The translations under genes and the position numbers were made by a program. A stretch of DNA of 64,000 nt. Origin: Amyelois transitella. Taxonomy: Eukaryota > Arthropoda > Insecta > Lepidoptera > Pyralidae. Positions 3,470 to 42,919 of the stretch are shown here, piece after piece. Position 1 is the stretch's first letter, and each line of letters begins with the position of its first letter. The stretch spans positions 2,654,001 to 2,718,000 of the forward strand of contig NC_083512.1 in the NCBI RefSeq assembly GCF_032362555.1, written 5' to 3'. Below the pieces are notes generated by a model. That model did not search any database. It was not told the origin of the DNA and worked only from the letters and a program-made list of their open reading frames with translations.

Positions 3470-3732
3470 GTAGCGTCCACAGAATCATCATTACAAAAAT
3501 TTGATGATTCTGTCGATTTTGTCAGATTTTGTAAACAATGTAGTTTACCACAATGTAAACTCGTCCATTCTTTTATGTTATTTGCTATCAAAGTAGCAAT
3601 TCTTTTTTTATAAAGTCGAGAAAGATAAATATTATCTTTAGTCAAAAAACAATTTTTTATGAACAAATTTGTATCAAAAAATACAAACTTGTCATGACGA
3701 CATGACATATTATGAACAATATTGTTCATCAA
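3454..3732 (-). CDS. Short ORF upstream of and overlapping LINE ORF2
   Basis: A 92-residue ORF in a different frame that overlaps the start of ORF2 by 16 bp. Its position matches the C-terminal end of an ORF1 (nucleic-acid-binding protein) in two-ORF LINEs, and an overlap of this kind is common there. I recognise no zinc knuckle or other domain, so the ORF1 assignment is positional only. It could also be a chance ORF in the 5' region. Confidence 0.35.
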   Translation of the reverse strand: MMNNIVHNMSCRHDKFVFFDTNLFIKNCFLTKDNIYLSRLYKKRIATLIANNIKEWTSLHCGKLHCLQNLTKSTESSNFCNDDSVDATCGLN

Positions 3733-4482: not shown

Positions 4483-4750
4483 GCCGTGTGGTTCCCGGCA
4501 CTATTACAAAAAAAGAATAGGACCACTCCATCTCTTTCCCATGGATGTCGTAAAAGGCGACTAAGGGATAGGCTTATAAACTTAGGATTCCTCTTTTAGG
4601 CGATGGGCTAGCAACCTGTCACTATTTGAATCTCGGTTCTATCATTAAGCCAAATAGCTGAACGTGGCCATTCAGTCTTTTCAAGACTGTTGGCTCTGTC
4701 TACCCCGCAAGGGATATAGACGTGATCATATGTATGTATGTATGTATGTA
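4483..4750 (+). mobile_element. SINE-like repeat family 1, near full length
   Basis: Starts GCCGTGTGGTTCCCGGCAC and ends in the (ATGT)n tail. It holds the family landmarks in order: CCATGGATGTCGTAAAAGG, GGGCTAGCAACCTGTCAC, the hairpin CAGTCTT/AAGACTG, and the tail hairpin GTCTaCCC/GGGatatAGAC. A clean box A/box B pair is not obvious, so the class (SINE) is inferred from length, tail and the target-site duplications of sister copies. Confidence 0.8.
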
Positions 4751-5504: not shown

Positions 5505-6560
5505 GCGGTGACGTATATGTATGGTAAGGAACCCTAAACACGGGTTTCCTCAAGTTTTCAAGGTCGGATCAAGTGTCAAGGAAATCCATTTCTTTCCGTT
5601 TAATTTACTCTTGAGTGTTTTCTTAATTATTTCAGAGGAAATAATTACGCCCACACTTACGGAGTAATAAGTGGAGAGTAAATTGTCTTTATAATAAATG
5701 TGCTTAAGTTATTCTTAGGTGAGCAGTGCTTGTGTCCTGTGTCATCTTTTTTTTATTCTAACAACTAATATAAAAGATCTTACAAAATATTATTGCACAC
5801 TTTCCGTTACCCGCAAATTCGTCCACTATTCAACGAAAAAAGCTGACTGCTGTATTACTTCCATAAAGGTATGGCGTCAGAAATTTATGTTTACAAATTT
5901 TTAAATAGGTCAGTACATCTAAAAAAATCGCATTTATATCAGAGCAATATTTTTTGCGTGATGCGCGTACAAACGTACCTACAGACCGACAGATAGTCTA
6001 AAAACACATTATTGGCTTCTATGAGTCATACTATAAGTATATATCTATGTCTTACATCAATTTTTTGGCAATACCTTTCTAGTATAGACGTCGGTTAGTT
6101 ACAATTTTATTATATTTATAACTATGGATGGGTGGACATGGGTTTTGATAGGGGTAGCTATGTATTTGTTTCGTTCTAAATGTCTTACAAAAACTACCAA
6201 CCACTTTCTAAGAATTTAACGAGAAGACATCGAAACAATATTTCCTTTGCCTACAAAACAAGACATACGAATAAAAATATTCATAATAATAAATCAAAAA
6301 TATTTTTATCAAATCACATATCGCTTTTGTTTGCAAAGAAAATATGCTTTATTCCGAGTACAATTTCGCTGAATCGCAAACCAGACGTCCAATGCACCGG
6401 CTACGAATTCCAAACGCAACCTGCATTGAGACTTGTCTGTCAATGAATCTTCTTAGGGCTGCATTCTGCTGGAATTCGGTAGCAAAACCAACCAGCCAGC
6501 TAGGATTATGTCAATCAATTTTGTAGACTTGAACGCACACGTGCATGAATATAGATACTC
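5505..6560. other. No gene seen
   Basis: AT-rich DNA with only short random ORFs. No repeat landmark identified. Confidence 0.4.
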
Positions 6561-6561
6561 G

Positions 6562-6860
6562 TACATACATACATATAGTCACGTCTTTATCCCTTACGGG
6601 GTAGACAGAGCCGATAGTCCCGGTCTATATCCCTTACGGGGTAGACAGAGCCAATAGTCCCGAAAAGACTGAATGGCCACGTTCAGCTGCTCGGCTTAAT
6701 GATGGAATTGAGATCCAAATAGTGACAGGTTGCTAGCCCATCGCCTAAAAAAAAAGGATCGCAATTTTATGAGCCCTTAGTCGCCTTTTACGACATCCAT
6801 AGGAAAGAGATGGAGTGATCCTATTTCATTTTTGTATTGGTGCCGGGAACCACACGGCAC
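6562..6860 (-). mobile_element. SINE-like repeat family 1 with duplicated tail module
   Basis: Full-length family 1 copy read from the (ATGT)n tail to the CCGTGTGG head. The tail-hairpin module is present twice in tandem (6583-6622 and 6623-6662, 38 of 40 positions equal). Confidence 0.8.
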
Positions 6861-8914: not shown

Positions 8915-9060
8915 ATAAACACATACATACCTACCATCACGCCTTGTCCCATTGGGGTAGGTAGAGACTATGGATTTCTAATTGCTACGATCCTTAGTGA
9001 TCTCTTTTTCCTTCACACTCATTACACTTTCATACATATTCGACGATTACGGGATAAAGG
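8915..9060 (-). mobile_element. 3' fragment of RTE-like LINE
   Basis: The minus strand resembles the coding end and tail of the LINE remnant at 23.75-24.2 kb (tail hairpin, then (ATGT)n). Decayed. Confidence 0.45.
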
Positions 9061-9525
9061 ATTATTAAAAAAAAATAGATTTGTATGCACATAGAATAAA
9101 AAAAAATAGCATCGTAATGATTAAAAAAAGTAATAGGTATTTGAAGACACCCAGAATAAACAGAAGCTCTTTCTTTATCACACAAAGTCACGGTTGACAG
9201 CTAGTAAATAAGAAATAATAAATAAAAATCACAAATGAATTGTGAAAATTGGATACAATTTAATCTTCAGAAAGATCACTTGTTGTTATCACAAAATGAA
9301 TCTGTAGCGAGCAACTGATAAAGCTTTGGACACATTGAGAATTTGTAGAACGTAGAATTTATTAGTATCAGTAGGTATGTATATGTTTATAACTTATTAC
9401 TCATAATATACATGTAAGCGTATGCCTTTCTTGATATTTTTACTAAAATAAATTTCTTGTGAAATAAATAACTAGCGCCCTTGTGCAAAGTTTGCCCTTA
9501 GTCTGACTTTTATTTGCATTTATTT

Positions 9526-10857: not shown

Positions 10858-11113
10858 ATTTCTTCCTCCTGGCTATAGTCCCGGTGGCATCCTCACCACT
10901 CTGAAGAGGAGACCTTTGACCATAAATGTTCAGCTTTGACACGATGTTTTCCCTCACCGTAAGAATCGGTTGGTAATTAATAATCAAACTAATGTTTATT
11001 CATAACTTCGAAAATAGTCATTGGTACATAGCCGAGGTGGGATTCGAACCTATGCCTTTATGCGTATCACGCATTTTAACCGGCCACCTTACCTATTCGA
11101 CCATCGACGCTCC
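10858..11113 (-). mobile_element. tRNA-derived SINE
   Basis: The minus strand begins AGGAGCGTCGATGGTCG with a box A-like TGGTCGAATAGG and box B GGTTCGAATCC. A body follows that recurs at 31546-31790 (CCCACCTCGGC then ATGTACCAATG) and ends near GCCAGGAGGAAG. Confidence 0.6.
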
Positions 11114-21788: not shown

Positions 21789-24700
21789 TGATATCTACTG
21801 AACCAATCATGAGTACTTTTTATCCCGGTAAAAACTATAGTTCCCGTGGGATTTGCGAAAAACCTGTACATATTCTTTTGTAGGTGGGGCTAAATTCACG
21901 CGAGCGAAGCTGCGGATTAAATCTAGTACTACATAATATTATAATTCGGATTATTAATATCATATTCTTTTGGCATCCATCCGGTTCCGTCCATCTATGA
22001 TCACATAATAAGTAAGTGAGATGATTAAAATTTCACAAAATGAAATATAAAATTCATTTAAATATACCTCTTCAAAAAATTCCGCGAATTCTGGAAAATC
22101 TTCGAGTCCAAATTGGTTCGACAGAGTAACAGTTTTCCTGGACTGTGTCACCAACTGTTCTATTTCTTGTGTGTGTTTGTCATCCTCGTCTATAGAGCAT
22201 AAAGCTTCGGCTATGGCCAACGCTATAGACGACGGTGAACTATGGCTGCCGTCAAAACTCACTGAGCTAGACGTGGCTGTGAAAACAATATTAAAATTAT
22301 TGAGATTTTGTATGCTTTAAGGCCAATTTTATTGTACTGACGGTGATAGACTCGATACACAAGTCACGCCTCTTTCCCGAAGTGAAAGGCAGACTAGGTT
22401 ATCTTTACATATGGCTTTGATTATACTTATACATTATCTACGTCTAGTTAAACGTAATTATATGTATCTATGTATGTATTATCTAGTCTATAAAAAGGTC
22501 AGGTCAGGCCAAGAGTACCTAAAACCGACGAGCTAGCAAGAAGTGAGTTATGCATGTGGATGTCGCAAAAGTAGTATGCACGAATCGTGGCAAATGGGTA
22601 GATGCAGTCTCTGCCTACCCCTCTGGGAAAGAGGCGTGATTTTATGTATGCAAATGCCTGCCATCCAAACAGAAACCACGTCATAATTATACTCACTTGT
22701 ATTCCCGAGGCTTACAATTCTCACGTGTTTTCTTGGTCTGTTCGGCCTGTCGCTCATATTGTGAGCTTCGCCGTTAGCTGGCACTAAAAGACATAACATA
22801 CATTTTAAGTTAGCAAATCGGAACACATGATCCATATGCTTATATCATAAAGCAGCAGTTTAAAAAGATGTTTATGTTTGCATTTGTCCAACTGTAAAAA
22901 AGCGGCTTTTCTTTCATCCCAGTCATTTAAAGTCATAAACCTTAATTGTTTAAATAACAACTATCATTATATAAATTACTAGCGACCTGCCCCGGCTTCG
23001 CACGGGTGCAAAATTATAAACATTATTATACATAAAAACCTTCCTGTTACAAAAAACCGCATCAAAATCCGTTGCGTAATTTTAAAGATTTAAGCATACA
23101 GACAGACTAAAATAGCGACTTTGTTTTATACTATGTAGTGATTACGTCGTTAAAGGCGACTAACTCACTTTTTGGAAACTTGGGATTCTTCCTGCAGGCG
23201 ATGGGCTAGCAACCTGTTACTATTCCATTATTAAGACTCCTCTAAAAGACTAAAACCTACCATACTTTCCTCGTCTCATTCTACACCTAATTCAGTCTCC
23301 GGTTATATGAGAAGAATGTCTCTAACTTATTTGGTTTTTGTGTTTCAATAAAATCTACACGTCTTTTTCTTAGCCTAATTCAGCATTTAAATACCTTCGC
23401 AGTAATACGATTAAACCTTTATTTCAATAAAAAAAGAACGTACCATTCTTTTCCCTCCTCGCCTCATTCTTCGCCCAATTCAGCATCTCTTCGTAGGCGA
23501 CTGTGATCAACATTTGCAATAACACAGAACCTCCGACCGGGTTAATGTGAGAAGGCAATGTCTTCTCTATTACTATACAAGCGTTGTAGAATGTCCGAGG
23601 CACGCAATCGAGAGATCGGGAGATACAAGTTAAACAGAGAGACATCGTCTGTAATATGAAATTAATGATGATTTATGGGGATGACAAGGAGTGGTCCTAT
23701 TCTTTATTTATTGATGCCGGGAACCACACGGCACAAAAACATTAAAAGTGTATCACACATGTGTGCAAAAGAAGCATTAAAGCAGAATAAATGCAGTGGA
23801 AATGAGAGCTTTAAATATGTGAAATTGAGTGACCGGATAAGGAACAGCGTGATAAGGGTATGGTTGTGATGTGAAAGAAGATATAGTTACAGGAATAGAA
23901 AAGGGTATATTAAGATGGTTTGGTCATGTGGAGAGGATGAATGAAAGCAGGTTGACTAAACAGGGAGGGGAGGAAGGGAGGGAAAGGTCGAAGTGGGAAG
24001 ACCTAGACGAACGTATCATGATCAAATTAAGGACGTCCTGGTAAAGTGTCAGGTCAAGAGTACCCGAAACCGCCGAGCTTGCATTACGAGAGTCATGAAT
24101 GTGAATGAAGCAATATATGTATTCAGAGATCGTGGCAAGTGTAAAGAGGTAGTCTCTGCCTACCCCTCCGGGAAAGAGGCGTGATTTTGTGTATTTATAT
24201 ATGTATCACACCTGATACATAGATGCGCCGCTCCGCACGGCGTTAACTAAGATCGGAGGGATGAACTGTAGCGCCGACCCCGCCGTTGCAAGCGCCCCCG
24301 CCAGCCACGGCGGCCGGCGGTCACACCACACCTCGAACGAGAATCACTACTTATTGTGGAGTCCCCCTTATTATTTTCTGTCTGTATGTATAACATAATG
24401 TTATGTTATACATACATACAGAAAATAATCCTCGTCTCTGTGCTGCTGTATGTTACATATATATATGTATATATATATCGTCTCTGTGCTGCTGTATGTT
24501 ACATATATATATATATATATGTATACATATATATATGTAACATACAGCAGCACAGAGACGAGGAAGGAAAATAATGGTACGTTTTTTTTTTTGTTGAAAT
24601 AAAGTTTTTAATAGATACGTACATATAATCACGTGTCACCCCCTAATAATAATCACCCCTTGCAGGGGAGACAGAGCCAACAGTCTTGAAAAGACTGATA

Positions 24701-27700: not shown

Positions 27701-30700
27701 TACTGAATAAACGATATTTGTATTTGTATTTGTATAGAAACATAGGAAGAGACGCGGGAAGCGTCTTTTCTACATACAATGTTGATATAAAGTACCTACC
27801 TGATGTATAAAATGCAACTCAGCCCCCCTATACACAAGACACTTGAACAGTTCATTGCACTTGGCGTGCACGTCTCTGACGTCACGCGGCTGCTGCGTGA
27901 CGTCACGCCCGCACGCGTCGGCGCCGGTCGCGCAGATCGCCGGCAACAGTTGCGCGACACAGAGTAGAATGTTCAGTATGTCGTTTAGCAAGAGAGGTGT
28001 GGTTGATGCGGTTGTGTTGGTCTGAAAATGTATCGTATTGTTTCAAAAGATAGTAATAATAGGCAAAAGGTAATATTATAGGTAAATCAAGAAACTTCAT
28101 TTCATAAAAAAAGTCATTCTTTCATTTTATTTCTCGGTTTGGGCCAAAAGTTCCACTGGCAGAAAATGCCTTATAGCATTAACTCGATCTGTTGTATATT
28201 TTATGTGTACCTATAAAGTTTAAATTAATAAATAAAAAAAAAAACATCGGACTTGGATATTTAATTAAAGAAAAGTCCAAAGCGTAAGTGTAGAAGTGGC
28301 GGGGAAAACTCATCTACCTATTTACAAAGAAACATTTTTATTACAAAGTTAAAGCCGTATTATAAACTACGTATTGATTGGCGAAATTACTTGAATCACA
28401 TTTTTTAACCATTTTTTTTAAGAGTACTCTATTAACACAAAATTTCGAGCACATTCGTTAGTGGGAACACTAATTTAATACACAACATTACCTACCTGGC
28501 AATATCTAACAGTCAATATAGTGAGAGTTTCATTGAGCATGCCAGCAAATATTCTCTGCGCCATCCTTGGAGGGACTGTGCCCCATAAATCTTTCCTGCT
28601 TCCTGAAAATCATAATATAATAACAGGTTTTATGCGAATAGCAAATCATAACGACATCTATATCGTGACGCATGAACTATTACGCGCTACTTGACGCTAC
28701 TTGTCTTTAAGAAAGTTATTCAATCAATCACATAGATGGCGCTATCGAAAAAATATGCCCAAGACTTATACAAACTAACTCAAAAATACGATATTTTATT
28801 ACTAGCTACGTGGGCTTCCTTCCCGTCAATCCTTTATTTCTGAAAAAAAAGACTATGACACTCCCTAAGTTCTATTTCTGCGCCAAATTCCGTCAAAATA
28901 AGTCAAGTGTTTTTGAATTGATTCGTTTCAAAGAAAAAAAAAATATCTTTAAAATATAACGATCAAAGACGCAAACTTACCATTCATATACAACCACCAT
29001 CCTTGAACCGAGGGAGTACCAGCGTGGTGTACTACATTATTTCCTTCTATAGGCCTCCCACCAGAATCTTGTAGTATGTACAGGGAAAGAACTCTATTGT
29101 GCAAGTCTAGGACCCTCTCCGCAACTGCTTCCGACATTGTGACGTAGCGTTTGTAACACGCCTGAAATTAAGAAAAAAAATTAAAAGGTTTGGTTGTTTT
29201 AAATTTTTTTATACAATTAATTAATATTATGCCGAATTAAATCATTAAAATTGTGGTAAATGAAAGTAAACTCAGGAGATAAATAACTATACCTTAAATG
29301 TAATTAGTATGATCACTTATTACATGATGCAATATGTACCTATTCATAAGTTATTTTCATTAATATCCATTTGAATAAATTAATATCACTTTTTTTTATT
29401 TTACTCAATGGTGTTCTTCAGGGACCTTTTTTAGGCCTTTACTTTTTTTTTCAATATATAAATATAGTCACGTTTATATCCTTTGCGGTAGTTTTGTCAG
29501 AGCCAATAGTCTCGAAAAGACTGGAAGGCTATATTCAGTTGTATGGCTTAAAGATAAAATTGAGATTCAAATAGTGACAGGTTGCCAGCCCATCGCCATT
29601 GCCACTAGAGGATTCCCAAGTTTAGCAAAAAAATATGTACATATGTACAAAAGATAAAAAAAAAAATCCTTTTCTATTTACAAAATACCTGCATTGCCGA
29701 AATTTTGTCATTGCTGCAGCTATCTTCGACGTGTTGCACATAGCAATAGAGGCTATTTTTGAGCAACGCGGCCGCACCCAATGTTGCGGTCAAGACAGGC
29801 AAGTCAGCATGGTCAAGAGCCTCTTGTGCAAGAACGTGGAGGTGTTCTGAGGAAGAAAAAAGAAATAATTAACATTTTTTTTTTTTGTAACAGGCTAGTA
29901 TCCTATTAGAAAGTGTACACGTCTTTACGTTTTTGCCTCCAGAAAACCTATTTTGTTACGTTCAAATTTAGAGTTACAGAACTCAAAATTTCGAGAATGT
30001 CAATAATTTTTATAGGTACAATACCATTCATTAAACAGTAGTGTTTGTGTCACATAACGGACATTTTAGCGCAAGGGGAAAGATGTTGTCTCTATCTACC
30101 TACAGGAAAAGAGACGTGACCATATTTCTGTATTTTAACATATTTCTTGCAACTGCGGCGGTACTACTTAAGTGCAAATTATGTATATTCTGTCGTTATC
30201 TTACCTAGTAACAAATCACTCGATTTTATGGCAAGATGGACAAATTTATCAGGATCCGAAGTCTTTGCGACGCCGCCATCTTTTTTTTCTTCTTCCTCCG
30301 TGACGACAAACATTCCTGAGCCATGCCTGGAAATATATAAAATCACTTTATTATAGAAATCTATATAATCTCTGCACCAGTCCAGGGTCTTTTTCTGACT
30401 TATGTACATTAGTTTGGTTGCTAACCGATGCTCTTCATCACAAAACAGCTTAGTAGTAGACAGAGCCAACAATCTTAAAAAGACTGAAGCCACAATCAGA
30501 TGTCATGGTTACCTATTCAGAACATCGTAAGAAAACCTGATATCATTAGGGTAACTGGATGTGAACTATGATCCAAAACGGGTTAGGTACACCTGCAAAG
30601 ACTGCTGATGTCAGACAGAGAGTTCAGATAATATTATAAAAAGCATGTCAATGAAACTTACTGGAAAGCAATAGTAAATTCATCTTCTAGCCAAATGACA

Positions 30701-31252: not shown

Positions 31253-34172
31253 TTAAACTACACTATGTGTACAAGATTTGAAATCCACTTCGTTCTGCAC
31301 TATTTTGGATATTTCGTCTTGAAGTAATTTGTGCAAGGATACACCATCGTGTTTATAAATCCAGTAGCCTCCGTTCTTTAAAACTAAGTCGTAACGTTTT
31401 GGCCCCGACACTGGTGAACTAAGCCAAATTTGCTTATTGGGAGTTTGTCTGTTGATCACGTATGTACCGTAAGAACTTCCTAGTGCAACTGTCAACACAC
31501 CATCCTGTAAAATTATAAAAACTTGTTATAGATTTATAAAATTTTATCATACATCCCACCTCGGCCATGTACCAATGTCTATTTTCAAAGTTATGTTCAT
31601 TAGTTTAAACACTAACCAATGCTGTTACATCGTAAGGAAACCTGCACATTCAGGCAACTGTATGTGTAACTATGATTGATCCAATACAGATTAGGTTCCC
31701 CTTTAAATGTTGCGGAGGTCAGATGGGAGTTGCTTCGTATAAAAACCTGACTCACCTAATCCAGGATCCATGGTCAAAGGCAAACCCCAGGCTGCTTCTA
31801 GAGTAAATTCTTAATCAAATGCAACAATATTTTAAAATCAATAACATTTTCCATTCCCAACAATATGGGTTCACTGCCGGGAAGTCCACCACTGATGCGG
31901 GAGTAGCACTTGTTACTCAAATCTATGACGCGTGGGAGAGTTCACAGGATTCAGTTGGAGTCTTTTGCGATCTCTCTAAAGCATTTGATTGCGTAGATCA
32001 TCAGACACTTTTGCGTAAACTTCGTCAATATGGGTTTGACCACAAATCAACTAAACTAATGGCATCCATTTGACTGATAGGCTTCAAACTGTAGATATTA
32101 ATGGAGTAAAGTCAAGCGGATCAAGCGTCTCAATGGGTGTTCCTCAGGGCTCAATTTTAGGACCATTCCTCTTCTTGGTATATGTCAATGACCTGCCTTT
32201 TATGGTGGAAAAACAGGCGGGTATAGTGCTGTTTGCCGATGACACTTCTTTAATATTTAAATTAGATCGCCATAGCGAAAATGTAAGTTCGGTTAATAAT
32301 ATACTGTCGGCCATATCTATCTGGTTCTCAACCAACAATCTTCTTTTAAATGCTAATAAGACCCAATGCATTAAATTTACCCTTCCAAACGTAAGGCAGG
32401 CCAATACTGACATAATACTGGAAGGCCAGAAATTAGAATTTGTTGAAAATACAAAGTTTTTAGGAATTATAATTGATGCAAAGCTACAGTGGGGTGCTCA
32501 TATTTCTAAACTATCCAATAGACTTAGCTCTGCCGCTTATGCTGTTAGGAGGATCCGACAATTGACAGATGTAGCTACAGCTAGGCTTGTTTATTTCAGC
32601 TATTTTCATAGCTTGTTATCTTATGGTTTACTTTTATGGGGTAGCGCGGCTGATATACAAACTATTTTTATAATTCAGAAAAGGGCCGTTCGCGCAATTT
32701 ACGGCTTAGGACCAAGAGACTCATTAAGACAACTCTTTAAGAAAATAAACATACCTACAGTAGCGTCCCAGTACATTTTTGATCTTATAATGTATGTTAG
32801 GAAAAATACCTCTTTTTTTCAAAAAGTTAGTGCCACAACTGATAGAAATTTACGTAATAAACATAAATTAGTCATACCGTTTCATAGGCTTAGCAAAGTC
32901 AGTAAATCATTTATGGGGAACTGTATACGATTTTATAATAGGTTGCCGGAGTCTGTTCTTGATATGCCCTACCGAAAATTCAAAGAGTATGTAAAGAAAG
33001 TACTTTGTGAGAAGGCTTATTATAGGACTGATGATTACCTTAATGATAAAAACATCTGGCTCGAGCTTGGCACAGGAACCTCGTAATTAATTGTAGTTTA
33101 ATTTGAACTTAAATCAAAATTTCAGTACACTCTGTACATAAATCTTTTTAAAATTGGCAATCCATAAAATATATATATATATATATATATTTTTCTTTTT
33201 TCAATATTAAATCTCATAAATATATAAATCTCCCGTGAACAATGTATTCTCCCGTCCACATTATATTCTAAGTATAATTTAATATTGTGAAGTTGACGTT
33301 GTTAAAGAAAATGCTGCAGTGCAGTTTGTTACCGCTTCTTCTGCACTGACGCCTTGGAAGCGGCAGTAAACTTAGTTTTTAAGTAATATATTTGACGTCA
33401 ACCAAGTTGTTAAACCATACGACAATTATTAAGCGATATAATAATATCCTATAATAATGAATAAAAAATTTTGAATTTTGAATTTTTTGAATTTTGAGTA
33501 ACTAAAGGCAGAAAGTAGAAGATAGATTTGTCACTTATTAATTTTGAGACTGGCAGGAGATGTGTTGTTATTCAAACTTACACTATTTGTACACCATACT
33601 TAACCAGCCCATTGAGATACATATACTAACACAAGAAGGATTATATCATCAGAACAAGCACACTCATTAATACAAATGGGATACAAAATCATTTTTATTT
33701 TATATGCTTTAAATATTTGACAAATTATGGGAAAAAAGATTTTTCTTACATTTTGGTTTTATGGGATGTGAACCTTGAATTTGTGACTTTAGTGTTATAT
33801 AAAAATTGTGTTTAAAGGCAACATTCACTAGGGTTAATGAGAATCAGATTTTCATCATTATGTGTCAAGAATTCTATTTATACTTACACTAAAAGTTACA
33901 TCGGCTCCTTTTAAATTAGGTGCTTGTTCTATCAGCTCCTCAAAATAATCACAAAGAGATTCTAATGTTTCGTTGCAAATTTCTTCAAATACTGCTTGAT
34001 CCAATACTTCTGAGCGCTCAACTTTATCACTAGAACTTGAGAAATTTCGGAAAACGGGAGAAACAAGTTCATTTTGTTTAGATAACGTTTGGGATCGAAC
34101 CACTGTACAAGGAATGATATTGATTCTTTTACGTGTCAGCCAGCGACTGGTACGCAGGAAACTCCGTAACAT
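31253..34172 (-). CDS. fh: Frataxin, mitochondrial, 2 exons, 178 aa
   Basis: Exon 1 34172-33888 and exon 2 31504-31253 join in phase 0, so that TFS meets DGVLTVAL. The N-terminus is rich in Arg and Ser with few acids ([14 protein letters not shown]), as in a mitochondrial presequence. The mature part begins near residue 58 with the acidic first helix ([16 protein letters not shown]) that binds iron in the family. The sheet segment [14 protein letters not shown] and then GPKRYDL are diagnostic of frataxin. The protein assists iron-sulfur cluster assembly in the matrix. Length fits insect frataxins (about 190). The 2383-bp intron holds a SINE-like fragment and a LINE on the opposite strand. The stop is followed by the next gene's ATG after 83 bp. 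The symbol is that of the Drosophila orthologue. Confidence 0.95.
31546..31800 (+). mobile_element. tRNA-derived SINE body in the frataxin intron, 5' truncated
   Basis: TCCCACCTCGGCCATGTACC matches the region behind box B of the copy at 10858-11113. GCGGAGGTCAGATGGGAGT and CTAATCCAGGATCCATGG follow. Pieces of the same body occur near 30540, 39640, 47590, 48280, 55830 and 59600. Confidence 0.5.
31819..33086 (+). pseudogene. Frameshifted reverse transcriptase of the intronic LINE
   Basis: Frame 1 (31819-32073) carries [19 protein letters not shown] and stops just after. Frame 2 resumes at 32070 with [18 protein letters not shown] and FADD, and ends at 33086. Compared with the intact copy, one nucleotide is missing near 32069. 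The endonuclease and the first RT motifs are absent through 5' truncation, so it cannot encode a working enzyme. Confidence 0.9.
33169..33190. repeat. (AT)n microsatellite
   Basis: About 11 AT units in the 3' UTR of the intronic LINE. Confidence 0.85.
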
Positions 34173-34710: not shown

Positions 34711-37700
34711 TTAGTTTTCGTTGTTTGCTTGTTCTTCATCAAGTTCAGGTGTAGCTGTAGGTTCAGGTTCGGGAGGTAACATATACGCATTTTGTGGGGG
34801 CAACATCCACAAATTGGCTTGGTAAGCAGTTGATAGTACTGATATAGAAGGCTCGGGTACTCTTGGTATTGGCAGTAATGAGTTATATTGATTCCAGTGA
34901 GCGTTAATTAGAAGAACATGTCGATCGCCACGCTCTTGCAATGGTCTATAGTTTCTCAGGTTTGGTTCATCCCAAGGATCCCAGAACTTGCGAAATTCTT
35001 TCATCTACAAATTAACGTACCTAGCTAAAGTATCTTACACTGTCTGCCTTTTATTAAGGAGTATACTACGGCCATATAGGAGAGTAATACGATCTCGATA
35101 CTGACTCGACACGTCTTGGTCCCTTCAGTGGTAGACAGAGCCGACAGTCTCAAAGAAACTAAATGCCACGTCCAGTTGGATGGCTTTATCATCGATACAG
35201 ATATGATAGTTTTTTTAAATATTAAAAGATAGAAAGTAAAAGGTACTGAAAGCAAAATTACATACAAAGGACCAATTTGAATATTAACTTTTACATGTAA
35301 TTTTCAAAAAGGTAATAGAAGTTAGTACATCTGCAATACTTACTAAAATTAGTTCTTGTATACATCACTGGCATGCTGTGATCAAATTAATTGTCAATGT
35401 CAAATAGTCCGAGAGTTACATATATGGTCACGTCTATATCCCTTGCGGGTTAGACAGAGCCAATAGTCCTGAAAAGACTGAATGGCCACGTTCAGCTTTT
35501 TGGCTTAATGATAGAATTGAGATTCAAATAGTGACAGGTTGCTAGCCCATCGCCTAAAAAGTCCGAGAGTTACCTACTGTAAAATGCGGTTTATTTTGGC
35601 GGGTTTAGTTTAAAAATTATGACTCATAACTTTTGAACTAAATCACTTTTTTATCCTCATAATTTATAAAGATTAAAACGTTATTATAACAAGGACTTTA
35701 AACAATTAAATAAGTAGGTTTTGCTTAATATCGTTTAAAACCGCATGCCCAAATAAGATGGGCAAAGTCAGGATATCCTGATTATGTAAAGAAAATTGAG
35801 AGAGTACTTATTTACGCAGGCTTATCTGGACTACAAAATACTTCGATCTTACCTGTGAAAAACTAGCAAAGAGAGTGATCCGTGGTACCAGCCATCTAAG
35901 AACGTGGCTTTCTCCTGCGACTGTGTTCAAAGTGCCCCAATACAAGAAGTAGTCTTCAAAGAACATCGGCAGCAGACGCGACATTGGGTAAGGCCCTACG
36001 CGCGTGTTCGTCTGTGCCTCACGAATTCGCGGGAAACCCTCAATTATCCAGGTGAGACGGTCGTCGTCCTCGACGCCGTACTGAAAGGTAAAAGGAACAT
36101 TTGCAAAGTACAATTAGGACATCATTTTCTAGGAGGTCATGATGAGAAAAAGTTCCCTATTAAAAATTCAAGGCAGGCTGTTGCCCACTGCCTGCAGCTT
36201 TTCCACAAGTTTTTCATTGGCACGACACAGTCATGAATCACGTCGTTACACCTCATGGAGTAGACAGAACAGAGCCAACAGTCTCGAAAAACTGAAAGGT
36301 CACATACATCTAGATTCTAGAAGGTAGTGACGGGTCGCTAGCCTATCGCAGGTTAGAATCTTTTCCCTTCAATGATTTTTACAATCTTCGCAGTAAGAGA
36401 AGCAGATATCATACACATTATGTGCCAGCTGCTTCTTCATGTGTGGTTCCCGGCACCAATGAAAAAAAGAATAGGACCACTCCATCTCTTTCCCATGGAT
36501 GTCGTAAAAGGCGACTAAGGGATAGGCTTACAAAATTGGGATTCTTTGTTTTTAGGCGATGGGCTAGCAACCTGTCACTATTTGAATCTCAATTCTATCA
36601 TAAAGCCGAATGGCTGAACGTGGCCATTCAGTCTTTTCAAGACTGTTGGCTCTGTCTACCCCGCAAGGGATATAGACGTGACAATATGTATGTATGTGTA
36701 TGTATGCTTCTTCATCGGGGATGTTCTGGTGAGTAGGATCAGATCATGAGTATAGGTGCCATTACATGTAAGGATTATTGAATATGGATGAAGTAAAAGA
36801 AGTGTGTTCTATCGTTACATTATAGTAGGTACCTAAGCTTCCCCAATGTTCAAAAAAAATAAATAAATCAATACCCCAAACCGTAATGGTGCTAACCACG
36901 GAGAATGGTAGTGCCAGCCGATTATTTATAAAAACTTTACAAAATCAATTTACCGACCATCGGGAGATATTACTTAAAAATTGAGAACTACAGCATTCAA
37001 TTCGTATTACCTTTTGTAGGACCATCAGATTTCTATCGATGGTAGTTCGCATGGTGAGAGATAGAGTAGGTATCGAAAGTACAATGCAATTTGTTTAATG
37101 CTGAAGGATATAAACAAACAGCAAATGGTTTATTTGTTTTGGAATTTCGGGATAAACCCTTTTAGGCGTATTTAAGTAAGTACTCCTACTCGTATTTGTA
37201 TAGGCAGATTTTGGAGAACTTACTATCAAGTATTCGCTTAGAGCAAGGAAATTCGGTCAAGGTTGAATTTGATGTAAAAGAAAAAGGGACTGCATGACGA
37301 CTGACTTCACCAACATAGTCGCATTCGATTTTCGCATTAGTTCTGCATAAATTGCTTTTACTTGCTACGTACTCTGCATACATACATATGTACATACATA
37401 AAATCACGCCTCTTTCCCGGAGGGGTAGGCAGAGACTACCTCTTTCCACTTGCCACGATCTCTGCATACTTCCTTCGCTTCATCCACATTCATAACTCTC
37501 TTCATGCAAGCTCGGCGGTTTCGGGTACTTTTGACCTGACCCTTTACCAGGACGTCCTTAATTTGATCAAGATACGTTCGTCACGTCTTTCTCCGCATGT
37601 TGTTACAATATATTTTAATCGTAAATCTTTTCATACTATAAGCTCGTCTAGGGTCGTGTAGTCTTGACCTGACCTTTCACAAGAAGGTTACCGATTTGAT

Positions 37701-40541
37701 CAAAGTACATTTTTCTTTGCCTGCCTATTTCAACTAGCCTTTTCTTGATTCATTATTTCAAAATAACTCATCACCGCTCAGCCTAGGTATATCGCCAGTA
37801 AATTGAGAAAGTTTAATCTCTTACCTTGATCAAATAGCACACCATAACAACACCATCATGGTGTTTGAATGCCTCCTCCTGGGTTAAGTACTCAGCTCTG
37901 AAGAATGTTACCTATAAAACATTAATCTTCTTTTAATAACTTTTACAGATCGTCTTTAACATCAGAAAATATAACACAACAACTGATAATATGGACTTTC
38001 CAAAAATCAGAAGAAGATCTCGAAAGAGATCCCTTCCGCCATTGCAAGTGATTTGTTTCTTTTTTAACTATGTAGGTATGTACTATTTCTTGTTACCGTG
38101 TAAATTTCTATGCATTAAAGATGTAAAACAAATAAACAAATAAGTCAATCAGTTTAGTGAGTCGGGCCACTGTGATTATTATAAGTTACTCCAACTGGTT
38201 CATGCACGCCATTTTGAAAATTGACCAATAAACTCAAAACCACAGCATCAATTTTGATTTAAAGGGGTAACAGATCATAGTTGCATTCCTGGAAATTATT
38301 ACGAAAGGGAAGCCCTTGGAAATCGTCTAGTGTACCTACCTACTTATTAAAACGTTGAGAATACATTTTCGATAAAAGAAACCTTTCACCTTACAAATGA
38401 AATCTTATTCAGTGGTCTCGATCGTGCGGGGAAAGAAAAGTTTGGTATTATTCGGAATTGATTAAACTCATCTATTGTACAAAATATTCTCAAACAACAC
38501 AGTTTCGGTTGTTACAATACAAATATTGGTCCTATCTCGAGTGATTGGTTTCTACATCCGAGCTTAGTTGCTTTACAAATAAAGACTGTCTGTTCTATTT
38601 CAGACAAGTGGCTGTCTGAAACTTTGTCGTGTTGAATTTATTTCTATCTATGCCACCATCGTCAAAAATTTGGTCATAAAAAATACTTATAGAATACTTT
38701 TAAATACACACATCCATACATACAAATAATCACGTCTATATCTCTTGCGGGTTAGACAGAGCCAGCATTCTTGAAAAGACTGATAGGCCACGTTCAGCTG
38801 TTTGGCATAATGATAGATTTGAGATTGAAATAGTGACAGGTTGCTAGTCCATCTCCTAAAAGAAGAATCCCTAGGTTATAAGCCTAACCTTTAATCGCCT
38901 TTTACGACATCCATGAGAGAGAGATGAGAGGGAGTGCCCCATTTTAATTTTATTGATGCCGGGAACCACACGGCACTACACACACATCGTATTTAAAATA
39001 ATCTTATCGCTTACAAGGTATTACGAAGTCTTGAACGTTCAGCTGGATGGCTTGATAATGGAATATATCTATCTTCTAAAATCTAAAGCAAAAGGCTTAC
39101 TAATTTAATTGACTTTTAGTTTATTTTTATAATACACAGTTACCTGCATTTCTGCAGGGTATGTTCGTTGGTCCACGGTATGTTCACTGCCTTCCATCAT
39201 ATCCGCGCCCCAGTGAAAGTGAATTTGTGATAGAACATGCTTTTCCAAGAACGGGCCGCCTTCTAAGTACGGACGTTCCGTTCTCCATTTGGCACCAAGT
39301 ACCACTGAAATAAATATAAATTAATAAATATAAATATATACTGGACAAATTACACTGATTGAGTTAGTAGGTAGAAGTAAGTTCGAGACTTGTGTTACGA
39401 GATACCAACTCAACGATACTGTATTTTATAATAAATACTTATATAGATAAACATCCAAGACCCAGGACGATCTGAGAAAGTTCGTTTCTCATCATGCCCT
39501 GGCCGGGATTCGAACCTGGGACCTCTGGTGTCACAGGCAAGCGTACTACCGCTGAGCCACAGAGGCCGTCGAAAGGAAATTTAAAGTGCATACGTAATTA
39601 TTTATAACATTAGATTATTTTTAGGCGATGGGCAAGCAATAGGTACATTCGTCTAATGTATCTTTTACCATGATTCAATATGGGTTAGGTTCCGCTGCAA
39701 GGGTTGTTGGAAGGTCAAATGGGACGGTAGTTACTTTGCGTAAGAACTACAAGCTTCATTAAATTTACTCACAAGTATATCCAGTGTTTGTCAATTTCAC
39801 TTTATGCGGATAGACGTCGAAATTGTACCATCTTAGTTCTGGACAAAGGTATGCTGTTGAGCCCGTGATAGAAACGTCTATAGGTGTCGGAAGATGACCA
39901 TCAAATTCACTGATATAGTCGATCCATTCTACAGTTCCAAATTTAGGAATGACTTTCTCTTCCTTTTTAGGTGGTGGGGCTTCTTCATCATCTAAAATTA
40001 ATTTAGTCTAAAGTCATTTATCGTGTGGTTCCTGGTATTTTAGGATAGGTTACCTCATCTCTTGCCTGAGGATGTCTTAGAAGTAACTTAAGAAATTATC
40101 ACATTCATCTAGTACAATCTTCCACGTTTTGTAACGAAAAAATGCAAAATGTTTAAGACGATTAAGGGAAAGGCTAAATAAATAAATTTGGGATAAGCCT
40201 TAGATTTTCCATTTAAGCGATAGGCTAGCAACCTGTCACTATTTCTGAATCTGAATTCATTTAGCTAAACTCGGTCTTTGAACTGCAGAATTTTTACATG
40301 GGTCAAGTAAATTGTATGCTCAGGATGACATGTGCTACGTATAATAATATGTTATTTGTGTAGATAATTAAAGACGATGTTTTGGTTGAAGTGCTACATA
40401 CAAAATTGGTGCTCAATTAGTTTTATTATTGTTATAACTATTATAGTAACAACTTTTGGTAATTACTTGTGGAGAAACTTACAGAGCAGACTTTTTGTAA
40501 AAATACAACTAACCTGGCTGTGCCGCTACTGCTAACTGCAT
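34711..40541 (-). CDS. Carbonic anhydrase-related protein (likely inactive), 6 exons, 338 aa
   Basis: Exons in order: 40541-40514, 39991-39773, 39304-39144, 37911-37825, 36080-35853, 35004-34711; together 1017 nt in one frame. Alpha-carbonic anhydrase landmarks appear in order: PTPIDV (family SPIDI), HFHWG with two zinc histidines, GSEHTVD, YFLYWGTL, and NYRPLQ near the end. Against human CA II, H64 is Tyr (TNTGYT), the third zinc ligand H119 is Gln (AEMQ), and T199 is Asn (GTLNT). Only two of three zinc ligands remain, so CO2 hydration is unlikely. No signal peptide is evident (MQLAVAAQP). The C-terminus adds about 45 residues rich in Pro and Glu. It probably serves as a binding protein, as other CA-related proteins do; the partner is unknown. 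Confidence 0.85.
35080..35185 (-). mobile_element. SINE-like repeat family 1, decayed fragment
   Basis: GGTAGACAGAGCCGACAGTC then AATGCCACGTCCAG. Intronic. Confidence 0.45.
35406..35573 (-). mobile_element. 5'-truncated SINE family 1 with 14-bp target duplication
   Basis: The body 35420-35559 is flanked by perfect copies of AGTCCGAGAGTTAC (35406-35419 and 35560-35573). The element stops at CCCATCGCCTAAAA, so the head half is missing. Direct evidence for target-primed insertion of this family. Confidence 0.9.
36240..36350 (-). mobile_element. SINE-like repeat family 1, decayed tail half
   Basis: GAGTAGACAGAACAGAGCC, AACAGTCTCG and GGTCGCTAGCCTATCGC. Confidence 0.5.
36439..36706 (+). mobile_element. 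SINE-like repeat family 1, near consensus
   Basis: Complete from TGTGGTTCCCGGCACC to the (ATGT)n tail. One of the best-preserved copies here; in an intron of the carbonic anhydrase-related gene. Confidence 0.88.
37380..37600 (-). mobile_element. RTE-like LINE 3' fragment
   Basis: The minus strand ends GTCTCTGCCTACCCCTCCGG, GAAAGAGGCGTGATTTTATG. Upstream, the coding remnant covers the VMNV..A and GRPR-type segment of the copy at 24 kb. Confidence 0.65.
38055..38145 (+). mobile_element. 3' end of an unclassified LINE
   Basis: TTACCGTGTAAATTTCTATG, CATTAAAGATG and a (ACAAATAA) tail, as at 14935. Confidence 0.4.
38709..38978 (-). mobile_element. SINE-like repeat family 1, full length
   Basis: From CCATACATACAAATAATCAC to GGGAACCACACGGCACT. 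ACACACATC on both sides is a likely target duplication. Confidence 0.8.
39341..39570 (-). mobile_element. tRNA-derived SINE, complete
   Basis: The minus strand begins GACGGCCTCTGTGGCTCAG. Box A is TGGCTCAGCGG and box B GGTTCGAATCC, spaced like a tRNA. The body then reads GGCCAGGGCATGATGAG, GTATCGTTGAGTTGG and CTCGAACTTACTTC. No CCA-type 3' stem end follows box B, so this is a SINE and not a tRNA gene. In an intron of the carbonic anhydrase-related gene. Confidence 0.85.
40020..40250 (+). mobile_element. SINE-like repeat family 1, decayed
   Basis: CGTGTGGTTCCTGGTATTTT at the head and GATAGGCTAGCAACCTGTC later. Intronic. Confidence 0.55.
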
Positions 40542-40911
40542 AATTTAGGAAATATTTAACATAACTGAAAATTTTATAACAAAGGTAATTGTGTAAATAC
40601 CTACAAGAATTTAACGTTATATTATGACATTTTTATTCATAGCTCATTTATATTATTTTTAAGGGGAGGCTCGTACATTACATTTTTATAGTACCTACTA
40701 ATTCATGGGCTGATAAAATCGGCGAAGGTTTAAAAAAAGTATGATATTTTATGATAGACAGAATGTCAACATTTACCGTCAAAAGTGAAATGTCAAACCG
40801 CCAACGTGAAACAACTCCATTGAAGTTAATGCTTTGGGGAAAATATTTAAATTTCGCTTGTGAATATAATTACTTAGCTTAATAAAATAAAGACTTATAT
40901 ATCATTTCGAA
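40542..40911. promoter_or_regulatory. Shared divergent promoter region
   Basis: 370 bp between the start codons of the minus-strand carbonic anhydrase-related gene and the plus-strand MYCBPAP-like gene. It must hold both 5' UTRs and at least the core promoters. No TATA box at a convincing position and no repeat element. Confidence 0.6.
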
Positions 40912-42919
40912 ATGGAGCCGAACAAAGATGCAAAAAAACAGTCACATATCAAACCAGATTTTTTAGATTTGGATCGAGATTTGATCGCGTGGGAAAGATG
41001 GATAGGTATAAGGAAAGAAGAAATAGAATACCTATCTTCTCGAACATGCAGACCTGCTGTCGATTTGGCTATGAACTTGTTGGAGAAAGAACGTGAAGAT
41101 ATAGAAAGGAAAACCGTACTTGAGCATGCACAGGTCGATAAAAAACCAAAGATAAGGGGAAACACATCATGGGACCCGCCAGAAAGGTTGCATCAGTACT
41201 GTTATTGCGAACCAGTGTATGAAGTACAAAGAACTGCGGTTGAAATGGGATCCCCACCAGTAATTGAACATATTGGAGTGCCGAAATATATTCAAGTTAC
41301 AGAAAAAGGCCTTTTTGGTACGCCAGCACGAAAACCCTGCACTCAACTTGATGCTGAATATGTAAAATATAGAGAGAAACGAGAAACTGAACTGAGAAAG
41401 AAAATAAAGAAAATTGATCCGTTTCGGTAATATACATGGTTTATTAGATGTTTGTTAAATTAGGGCAAAATACGTAATATACAGTTAGGTAATTAATATC
41501 ACACTTCTTCACCGGAGGTGTAGGTAGAGACTAGATCATTGCCCTTACTACGCTCTCTGCATTTATATTTTGCTCCTATCTTTTCATGCACGCTCGGCTG
41601 TTTAGAGTTGTTGTCAATTGTACGTCTGATGTAAGTTATAAATCATTATGTATTTTTATAGGTCCGACATAAGTGAGCTTATCGTCAAAGGGAAAAAGGC
41701 TATTCAGCCGCCTGTTGTTAAGTTGCCTCCATTACCTGTAATCACAGTAGACATGCCTGAAGCCGCCAATGAAGTGATGGATAGTATTTATGCCATCAAA
41801 ATTAACAAAACTATCATATTCAAAGATATCCCAGGCCAAAATTTATCATATCTACAAAAGATGCAACAAGAACCTTGGCATGAGCGTTGTACATCTTGGA
41901 CGTATTATTTCAATGTTCCCATAAAAAGGGCTGGAAGAAGCAAGTTGTTTTTAAAGAATCTAGGTACAACAACACTACGGTATTGTTGGAAAAGGATAAG
42001 AAAGCCAATTCCATTTATACCAGAAGATTTCTATGTTCAAGTATTTTTCTTCTGTAAAAATGAAGATGTATTACCCCCTGGACAGAGTAAGGAATTGTAT
42101 TTCACATTTATTTCTGACCAACCCGGCATATACAGTGAGTTTTGGGAGCTTAGTTTTTGCAATATTTGCTTTTTCGATACTTTAGCTGATAAATTGGTTC
42201 TAAATTTATACGCTGATTCGGTAGAAAACGTAGAAAAGTGTTTGAAGAAAACAGAAGGACTTCAATCTAAAATAAACAGAAATGCAATATATAATCACAT
42301 GAAAACATTACTTGAAGTTGTTGTGTTAATAGCTACTGATATTGAACCTCAAATATACCCTTACAAGAAACTGTTTTTAGAGGCGGAAATGTTCCAAATG
42401 AAGAATCCAGTTTGTTACTATCATCAAACAGAAGTGCAAAAGATGAAAGATCTGTATCTAGAGATGAAGCCGGGAGAACATTGGGACTTGTCGATAGTAA
42501 AATGGAGAGAAGTATTATTGACAAAAGAGTACGATGACAGGATGAAGTATTATGAATTACTTCGAAAATCTCACTCGGATTTGTTAAAACCATGGCTTGA
42601 AGGTGACGGTCTTTTGAAACAGAAGCACCAAGCTGTTAATTGGTTGCTCGGCCAATTAGCAGATAAATTTAAAAGTGTGCATAAGTATATTTATGATTCT
42701 CTGTATCAAAGACGAGAGTCACTAGTAAGTGCAGGCTGCAGCTCGAAGAGTTCTCAAAGAGTTTCTGAAGTAATCGATCCCAATACGAAAGAATTAGCAA
42801 ACATATTGTTCTATGTACACATGCAACAACATATTGCACTTGCAATAGAAGAAATAGCTGGTGTTTTGAGTAGTCTAGATTTGAATAGGTGGATAGAATT
42901 TGACTTCTGTCGAATGTAA
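40912..42919 (+). CDS. MYCBPAP-like protein, 2 exons, 590 aa
   Basis: Exon 1 40912-41426 and exon 2 41662-42919 join through a split Arg codon (CG|G); 1773 nt in one frame. The N-terminal part has LDRDLIAWERWIGIRKEE. Exon 2 has PWHERCTSWTYYFNVP and then an immunoglobulin-like MSP/ASH-type stretch (LFLKNLGTTTLRYCWKRI, PGQSKELYFTFISDQPGIY, EFWELSF). This order matches the MYC-binding-protein-associated protein family, which is expressed in testis and ciliated cells in vertebrates; a sperm role here is inference. The protein is shorter than human MYCBPAP (about 950 aa). The stop overlaps a consensus donor (AT|GTAAGT); using it would add a short last exon at 43569-43584. Confidence 0.75.
41490..41640 (-). 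mobile_element. Decayed RTE-like LINE tail in the MYCBPAP-like intron
   Basis: TCACACTTCTTCACCGGAGG, TGTAGGTAGAGACTAG and later CATGCACGCTCGGC, inverse of the LINE tail at 24.2 kb. It fills most of the 235-bp intron. Confidence 0.55.

Follow-up and report, generated by a model that had tools for sequence, protein, structure and literature searches.

Lepidopteran SINEs that share the 3' end of a LINE have been described before. In Helicoverpa armigera, HaSE1 and HaSE3 have a 43-bp 3' end in common with HaRTE1.1 (82% identity), which the accessible part of that report reads as borrowing of the LINE machinery (PMC3272025). The accessible text on PxSE5 and PxLINE1.1, a LINE with EN and RT, likewise gives a common 43-bp 3' end (84%) and ATGT repeats (PMC8010984), and LSCS1, a 44-bp core of lepidopteran RTE tails and microsatellites, corresponds to the last 12 residues of RTE according to the accessible part of its description (PMC2887409). 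RNA structure is absent from the vocabulary of these accounts: in the main text as far as it is accessible, PMC3272025 never uses 'hairpin', 'stem-loop', 'stem' or 'compensat', PMC8010984 never uses 'stem-loop', 'hairpin' or 'stem', and PMC2887409 never uses 'hairpin', 'stem-loop' or 'secondary structure'.

Tail hairpins are known from other systems. In plants, L1 elements and SINEs possess a common 3' hairpin with compensated changes in the stem, marked as positions 1–5 in the legend of Figure 8 of the source, which was accessible in part (PMC3747384). In UnaL2/UnaSINE1 and ZfL2-1/ZfL2-2, a stem-loop and short repeats are recognised by the LINE protein, with a SINE as partner; the 3' stem-loop is needed in such stringent LINEs, and recognition of the hairpin by the LINE protein has been shown experimentally (PMC4176376 and PMC5135761, accessible portions). 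Among titles and opening lines, mostly of papers outside the subscription journals, we found no description of the hairpin reported here, and six 19- to 20-mers had no match in the text of the accessible literature, where the consensus sequences of HaSE1 and SfSE1 stand in figures.

The hairpin was found in a 64,000-nucleotide stretch of the genome of Amyelois transitella (contig NC_083512.1, positions 2,654,001 to 2,718,000 of the forward strand), hereafter called the window, to which all coordinates refer unless another stretch is named. Judged by the published families, the repeats of this genome have a lepidopteran look. The LINE that bears it (23765–24206, + strand) is a 5'-truncated, frame-broken copy of an RTE-type family, family A, delimited by blastn and tblastn. 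The blastn matches of four longer genomic copies begin at 23765, tblastn with the ORF of the family covers 23807–24181, the reading frame is broken upstream of the end, and the tail is a degraded ATGT run. The hairpin of this copy (24155–24184, +) has the form GCCT-aCCCC-tcc-GGG-aaag-AGGC-GTGA, and that of an abundant SINE, represented by a near full-length copy at 36440–36706 (+, start approximate), has the form GTCT-aCCCC-gcaa-GGG-atat-AGAC-GTGA (36651–36681, +; TCTGTCTACCCCGCAAGGGATATAGACGTGA); both stand ahead of TATG repeats, at the places where the first-pass annotation had read them. In the LINE, GCCT (24158–24161) pairs with AGGC (24177–24180) in the outer stem and CCC with GGG in the inner stem, and GTGA occupies 24181–24184. 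In the SINE, the outer stem consists of GTCT (36654–36657) and AGAC (36674–36677), the inner stem of CCC (36660–36662) and GGG (36667–36669) around the loop GCAA, and GTGA is 36678–36681. As had also been claimed, one pair of the outer stem is swapped with pairing kept: its 5' base C24159 and the partner G24179 in the LINE are T36655 and A36676 in the SINE. The common tail hairpin of this SINE and the RTE-type LINE is confirmed as a real observation.

RNAfold placed the loop boundaries one base away from those first drawn, and added a pairing of TCT with G.GA of the GTGA, with the T bulged. From 14 hand-picked tails (7 LINE and 7 SINE), RNAalifold obtained 10 pairs, of which 8 were invariant, 1 had a single broken cell and 1 was compensated, this last pair being C-G in 7/7 LINE rows and U-A in 7/7 SINE rows; 23 columns of the aligned tails were without any variation. 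An additional pair of the SINE, A36658-T36673, is frequently disrupted (17 of 130 copies have AA there) and is not present in the LINEs.

In the LINE, these same bases are codons, which the first-pass annotation had overlooked. Family A ends GTC TCT GCC TAC CCC TCC GGG AAA GAG GCG TGA, that is, V-S-A-Y-P-S-G-K-E-A-stop; the hairpin at 24155–24184 encodes S-A-Y-P-S-G-K-E-A-stop, and its GTGA consists of the third base of the Ala codon and the stop codon TGA. A longer copy of family A, L037, contains an open frame of 868 residues that ends VSAYPSGKEA-stop, with an RVT_1 domain above the cut-off (E 5e-37) and, the copy being 5'-truncated, a partial Exo_endo_phos_2 domain (E 1.1e-4) whose 22.5 bits lie below the curated 27.4. 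Its stop codon is followed by TTTTGTGTATGTATG and, just after a short GTAT repeat, by 11 bp that are found again at the 5' end as a target-site duplication. The very short 3' UTR of simple repeats, the 5'-truncated copies and the target-site duplication are all traits of the RTE clade. The label RTE came from the first-pass annotation, and is probable from the fit with published lepidopteran RTE features and from the C-terminal sequence.

A second LINE family, family B, differs from family A in its loop (AAT) and has an identical stem. It has 199 matches in the genome, commonly of the form A-Y-P-N-G-K-Q-A-stop; the copy in the window (8915–9073, –) has a partly decayed 5' stem arm (ACCT). We compared the consensus of 17 A copies with that of 9 B copies, and found that synonymous differences occurred at 0/11 comparable codons within the last 18 codons, compared with 10/19 before them (Fisher's test, p 0.004, with the 18-codon cut picked after seeing the data). 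For the hairpin codons alone, the values were 0/7, compared with 10/23 elsewhere (p 0.064). This synonymous flatness suggests either selection at the RNA level or an exchange of 3' ends between LINE families. The flat stretch extends to codons upstream of the hairpin that are not shared by the SINE, and because it covers codons outside the SINE-shared part, it may reflect such an exchange.

The SINE consensus begins GTGCCGTGTGGTTCCC and comprises 254 bases including the start of the repeat. Its only significant likeness to L037 is one 43-bp stretch (79% identity); a common 3' tail of this kind, together with a common repeat unit, here TATG, characterizes LINE–SINE pairs of the stringent type. 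The element is short and non-coding, has a fixed 5' end, and occurs in 62 full-length copies in a 264-kb sample, which was composed of the window and one 10-kb stretch (1,000,001–1,010,000) from each of 20 contigs. Flanking repeats of 6–17 bp were present in 32/62 full-length copies, compared with 15/62 when the flanks were mismatched, and repeats of at least 8 bp in 21/62, compared with 5/62 mismatched-flank controls. The SINE is accordingly flanked by target-site duplications as in LINE-driven insertion, and these, like the common tail unit, support the reading of the first-pass annotation. ARAGORN found 0 tRNA genes in the consensus, and an Rfam search of one full-length copy, carried to E 5, returned no tRNA, 5S or 7SL; degenerate heads can escape such searches. 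We name the element a SINE by features other than a Pol III head, namely its shortness, abundance, lack of coding capacity and target-site duplications. Its loop is one base longer than that of the LINE, with the result that the frame is lost, whereas the stem and the GTGA are kept. A second perfect hairpin of the SINE, CAGTCTT-TTC-AAGACTG, lies just upstream of the shared tail (36629–36645, +) and is also in the consensus. Among 29 tails, subgroups were seen that vary in the dinucleotide following GTGA (CC, TT, TG and others), the next repeat being constant, and in the loop (GCAA, GTAA, TCAA, ACAA). At L020:9480-9590, a SINE head comes directly after a LINE tail, and a SINE tail is reached no more than about 50 bases later; this looks like an internally deleted SINE inserted into the repeat tail of a LINE.

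The tail is abundant. A pattern that covers both forms, CTACCCC-loop-GGG-n-CGTGANNNTATGTATG, had 33,398 matches in the whole genome (327 Mb, 33 contigs), compared with 0 for the reversed pattern, so that the two strings are not a chance pair. The SINE form (4-base loop, T..A) had 25,778 matches and the LINE form (3-base loop, C..G) 10,392, in counts that leave out copies changed elsewhere, as the patterns fix the bases around the variable pair. In the 264-kb sample, a covariance model built from the 14 tails gave 170 matches up to E 1, and GTGA stood at most 9 bases upstream in 80 of 114 ATGT arrays. No copies in other species appeared in collections of viral contigs, genome contigs and phages, which may omit near relatives.

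The window contains further tails of these families: a second one of LINE family A (22482–22655, +), a third with ATGT repeats (37388–37598, –) and another strong SINE tail (4692–4733, +). One SINE copy (6545–6669, –) carries a tandemly doubled tail hairpin and then ATGT repeats, after which comes an 11-bp target-site duplication (ATCTATATTCA). Since the repeats and the duplication lie after both hairpins, the insertion seems to have been of a tail already doubled. An old LINE tail, TCTACCTACACCTCCGGTGAAGAAGTGTGA (41491–41531, –), has two compensated stem pairs (G-C to A-T and C-G to A-T) and one broken pair (C-A), and is possibly what is left of a third LINE family. A short, old LINE-like fragment (30070–30127, +) shows T-A where the families differ, with A-C at the pair next to it; its end is very short, with a CCATAT tail resembling that of the SINE.

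Other features of the window were noted in passing. ORFs of 968 residues (578–3484, –) and 343 residues (32055–33086, +) resemble another non-LTR reverse transcriptase, and part of the former aligns with the RTE ORF at about 24% identity. Two adjoining ORFs of 179 and 425 residues (40891–42919, +) resemble exons of a host gene. ARAGORN in its bacterial setting reported tRNA-Ile (gat) at 11028–11103 (–) and tRNA-His (gtg) at 39495–39566 (–), real or by chance, and Rfam with gathering cut-offs had no match in the whole window.

The first-pass annotation had suggested that RNA structure, beyond sequence alone, is what lets the SINE borrow the LINE machinery, and had looked to covariation for support. 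The compensated pair between the families is true, and the suggestion rests mainly on this one event at 1 of 10 pairs. In 172 copies (139 SINE and 33 LINE), the pair ranked 1st of 465 column pairs after average-product correction, followed by unpaired columns that likewise differ between the families; its rank was 190 within the SINE alone and 17 within the LINE alone. Within families, 227 stem cells were changed, 211 on one side and 16 on both sides, and 8 of these 16 still pair. There was no excess of compensation within the SINE, in which 4 pairing double changes were reached by 874 of 2000 shuffles. A small excess appeared in the 33 LINE tails, in which 4 of 5 doubly changed cells pair, a number equalled in 14 of 2000 shuffles. 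The four cells belong to three old copies, two of them to the tail at 41491–41531 with its additional broken pair; the shuffles ignore that old copies carry more changes, and two of the three old copies were aligned with gaps. We regard this excess as a lead. Copy-level covariation was rejected as proof, because copies decay without constraint once inserted and most of the signal comes from the difference between families. When the structure was slid along the alignment, one shift (+2) exceeded the true structure in covariation score (0.125, compared with 0.108), and the proportion of paired cells was 53.6% at this shift, compared with 99.3% for the true structure.

Flipped states of the pair within a family were no commoner than expected from a rough estimate of decay. 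SINE-type copies with C..G numbered 7 (among 45 matches), compared with 25,778 T..A and about 11 expected, and LINE-type copies with T..A numbered 5 (among 72 matches), compared with 10,392 C..G and about 20 expected; the decay rates came from 136 SINE and 32 LINE copies, and the assignment of the 45 and 72 matches to SINE or LINE type was made by eye. A third state, R..Y, had 7 scattered matches in the genome and was taken as decay. In family B, 1 copy among the first 100 of the 199 matches was changed on both sides, compared with 0.54 expected. With two stem substitutions placed at random, the compensated pair would have a chance of about 0.022; the change is one event, which agrees with structural constraint and is thin proof of it.

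We also compared stem and unpaired positions between families. Differences between A and B fell on 0/20 stem and 4/11 unpaired positions (p 0.010), those between B and the SINE on 2/20 and 6/11 (p 0.012), and those between A and the SINE on 2/20 and 5/11 (p 0.067); both stem changes of the SINE are partners of one pair, and still pair. The SINE hairpin folds better than its shuffles (z –2.17, 3 of 200 as good), and the LINE hairpins alone fold no better than theirs (family A, z –0.25, 71 of 200 as good; family B, z –0.88, 40 of 200).

Both LINE families and the very abundant SINE possess the same tail element, and an enzyme would presumably recognise it. We propose that the hairpin and GTGA-NNN-(TATG)n form the 3' recognition element of an RTE-clade LINE, used in trans by the SINE, a reading we hold to be somewhat probable; the tail is likely recognised by its structure. 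In this model, the reverse transcriptase of the LINE would attach to the hairpin of the RNA that encodes it, and target-primed reverse transcription would start in the (ATGT)n repeat next to the hairpin. As there is hardly any 3' UTR in the LINE, the element would occupy the final codons together with the stop codon, and the same bases would serve protein and RNA together. The SINE would carry an out-of-frame copy of about 43 bp of the element and could thereby use the LINE enzyme in trans. The comparisons suggest that the paired stem, the ACCCC...GGG and the GTGA with its repeat must stay, and that changes are allowed in the loop, in the 3' internal bases and at one stem pair while pairing holds. 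The hairpin overlaps the coding sequence, and a double constraint on its bases is suggested. In its fullest form, the LINE would have its 3' recognition RNA as a hairpin in its own last codons and stop codon, with selection for coding and for RNA acting jointly on the same bases, and the SINE would have lifted this tag out of frame with pairing kept by different bases; we give this form an even chance.

Three other explanations were weighed. The enzyme might read mainly the primary sequence (CTCTG.CTACCCC...GGG...CGTGA and ATGT), in which case the hairpin would be incidental to the A-Y-P-x-G codons and the complementary change a matter of luck. The invariant columns among the 14 tails, the folding of the LINE no better than shuffles, and a chance of roughly 2% for the compensated pair, which is not negligible after a search by eye, are all as this would predict. 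However, the stem bases hardly vary while the loop and the 3' internal bases do, the SINE, free of coding constraint, beats shuffles in folding, and compensated double changes are found among old LINE copies, so we consider this explanation unlikely. It is also conceivable that the real partner of the SINE is another RTE family with T-A at the pair; the change would then have arisen in the evolution of LINEs and be uninformative on borrowing from family A. A and B are about equally different from the SINE, T-A is seen in one decayed LINE-like fragment of the window, and many RTE families per lepidopteran genome are known, with 25 full-length elements in Bombyx according to the accessible part of the source (PMC2887409). 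Such a partner is improbable in view of the 5 T-A copies of LINE type against 10,392 with C-G, and of the 32 of 170 mostly weak model matches in 264 kb, among which no further LINE tail family was clear, save possibly the tail at 41491–41531. A better fit of the SINE tail to another LINE, which the first-pass annotation had named as the case against its idea, is in this way excluded in part; more divergent LINE tails would escape the T-A pattern, in which CTCTG, ACCCC, GGG and CGTGA were fixed.

The short element might instead be an internally deleted, non-autonomous derivative of RTE and no Pol III SINE, with its tail shared by simple descent. MAR4 and Bov-A2 are listed as non-autonomous derivatives of RTE elements in the accessible part of one survey (PMC3747384), and neither ARAGORN nor Rfam detected a tRNA or 5S head in the present element. 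Nevertheless, it has no significant likeness to L037 beyond the 43-bp tail, in a comparison where L037 is itself without its 5' end, and we regard this origin as possible but rather doubtful.

The proposed use of a LINE tail hairpin by the SINE would matter for several reasons. More than 33,000 tails in one genome carry this element of about 43 bp, and most of the sampled ATGT arrays come after it. Should the hairpin prove to be the recognition signal within codons, template choice by an RTE enzyme could be tested in a simple way, and the repeated occurrence in lepidopteran microsatellites of LSCS1, which lies just before the stop codon, might be accounted for. Ready substrates for such tests exist in a natural pair whose stem bases and loops are exchanged.

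Compared by description, the present pair resembles HaSE1/HaRTE1.1 in being a lepidopteran SINE with an approximately 43-bp 3' end of an RTE LINE, and differs from it in that HaSE1 has a tRNA head and a tail of TGA repeats (PMC3272025, accessible part). The (ATGT)n tail is also found, again by description, in SfSE1; however, SfSE1 is 298 bp long and tRNA-derived, and PxSE5 is 5S-derived (PMC8010984, accessible part). As in family A, repeats directly follow the stop codon in the lepidopteran RTE tails of the LSCS1 study, which, in its accessible text, treats the stretch as a coding end and a nuisance for markers and deals with truncated RTEs, whereas the present case is a SINE (PMC2887409). The plant hairpins belong to the L1 clade and have several compensated positions in the text accessible to us (PMC3747384), and in UnaL2 and ZfL2 the loop gives specificity in a binding assay (PMC4176376 and PMC5135761, in part), whereas in the present tail, known from its sequence, the loop is the variable part. 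The sharing of tails by lepidopteran SINEs and LINEs and compensated plant L1 hairpins are already published, and the present case is a modest addition to what is known of stringent tail recognition; what seems new here is a hairpin inside the C-terminal codons of the LINE, together with its out-of-frame copy in the SINE.
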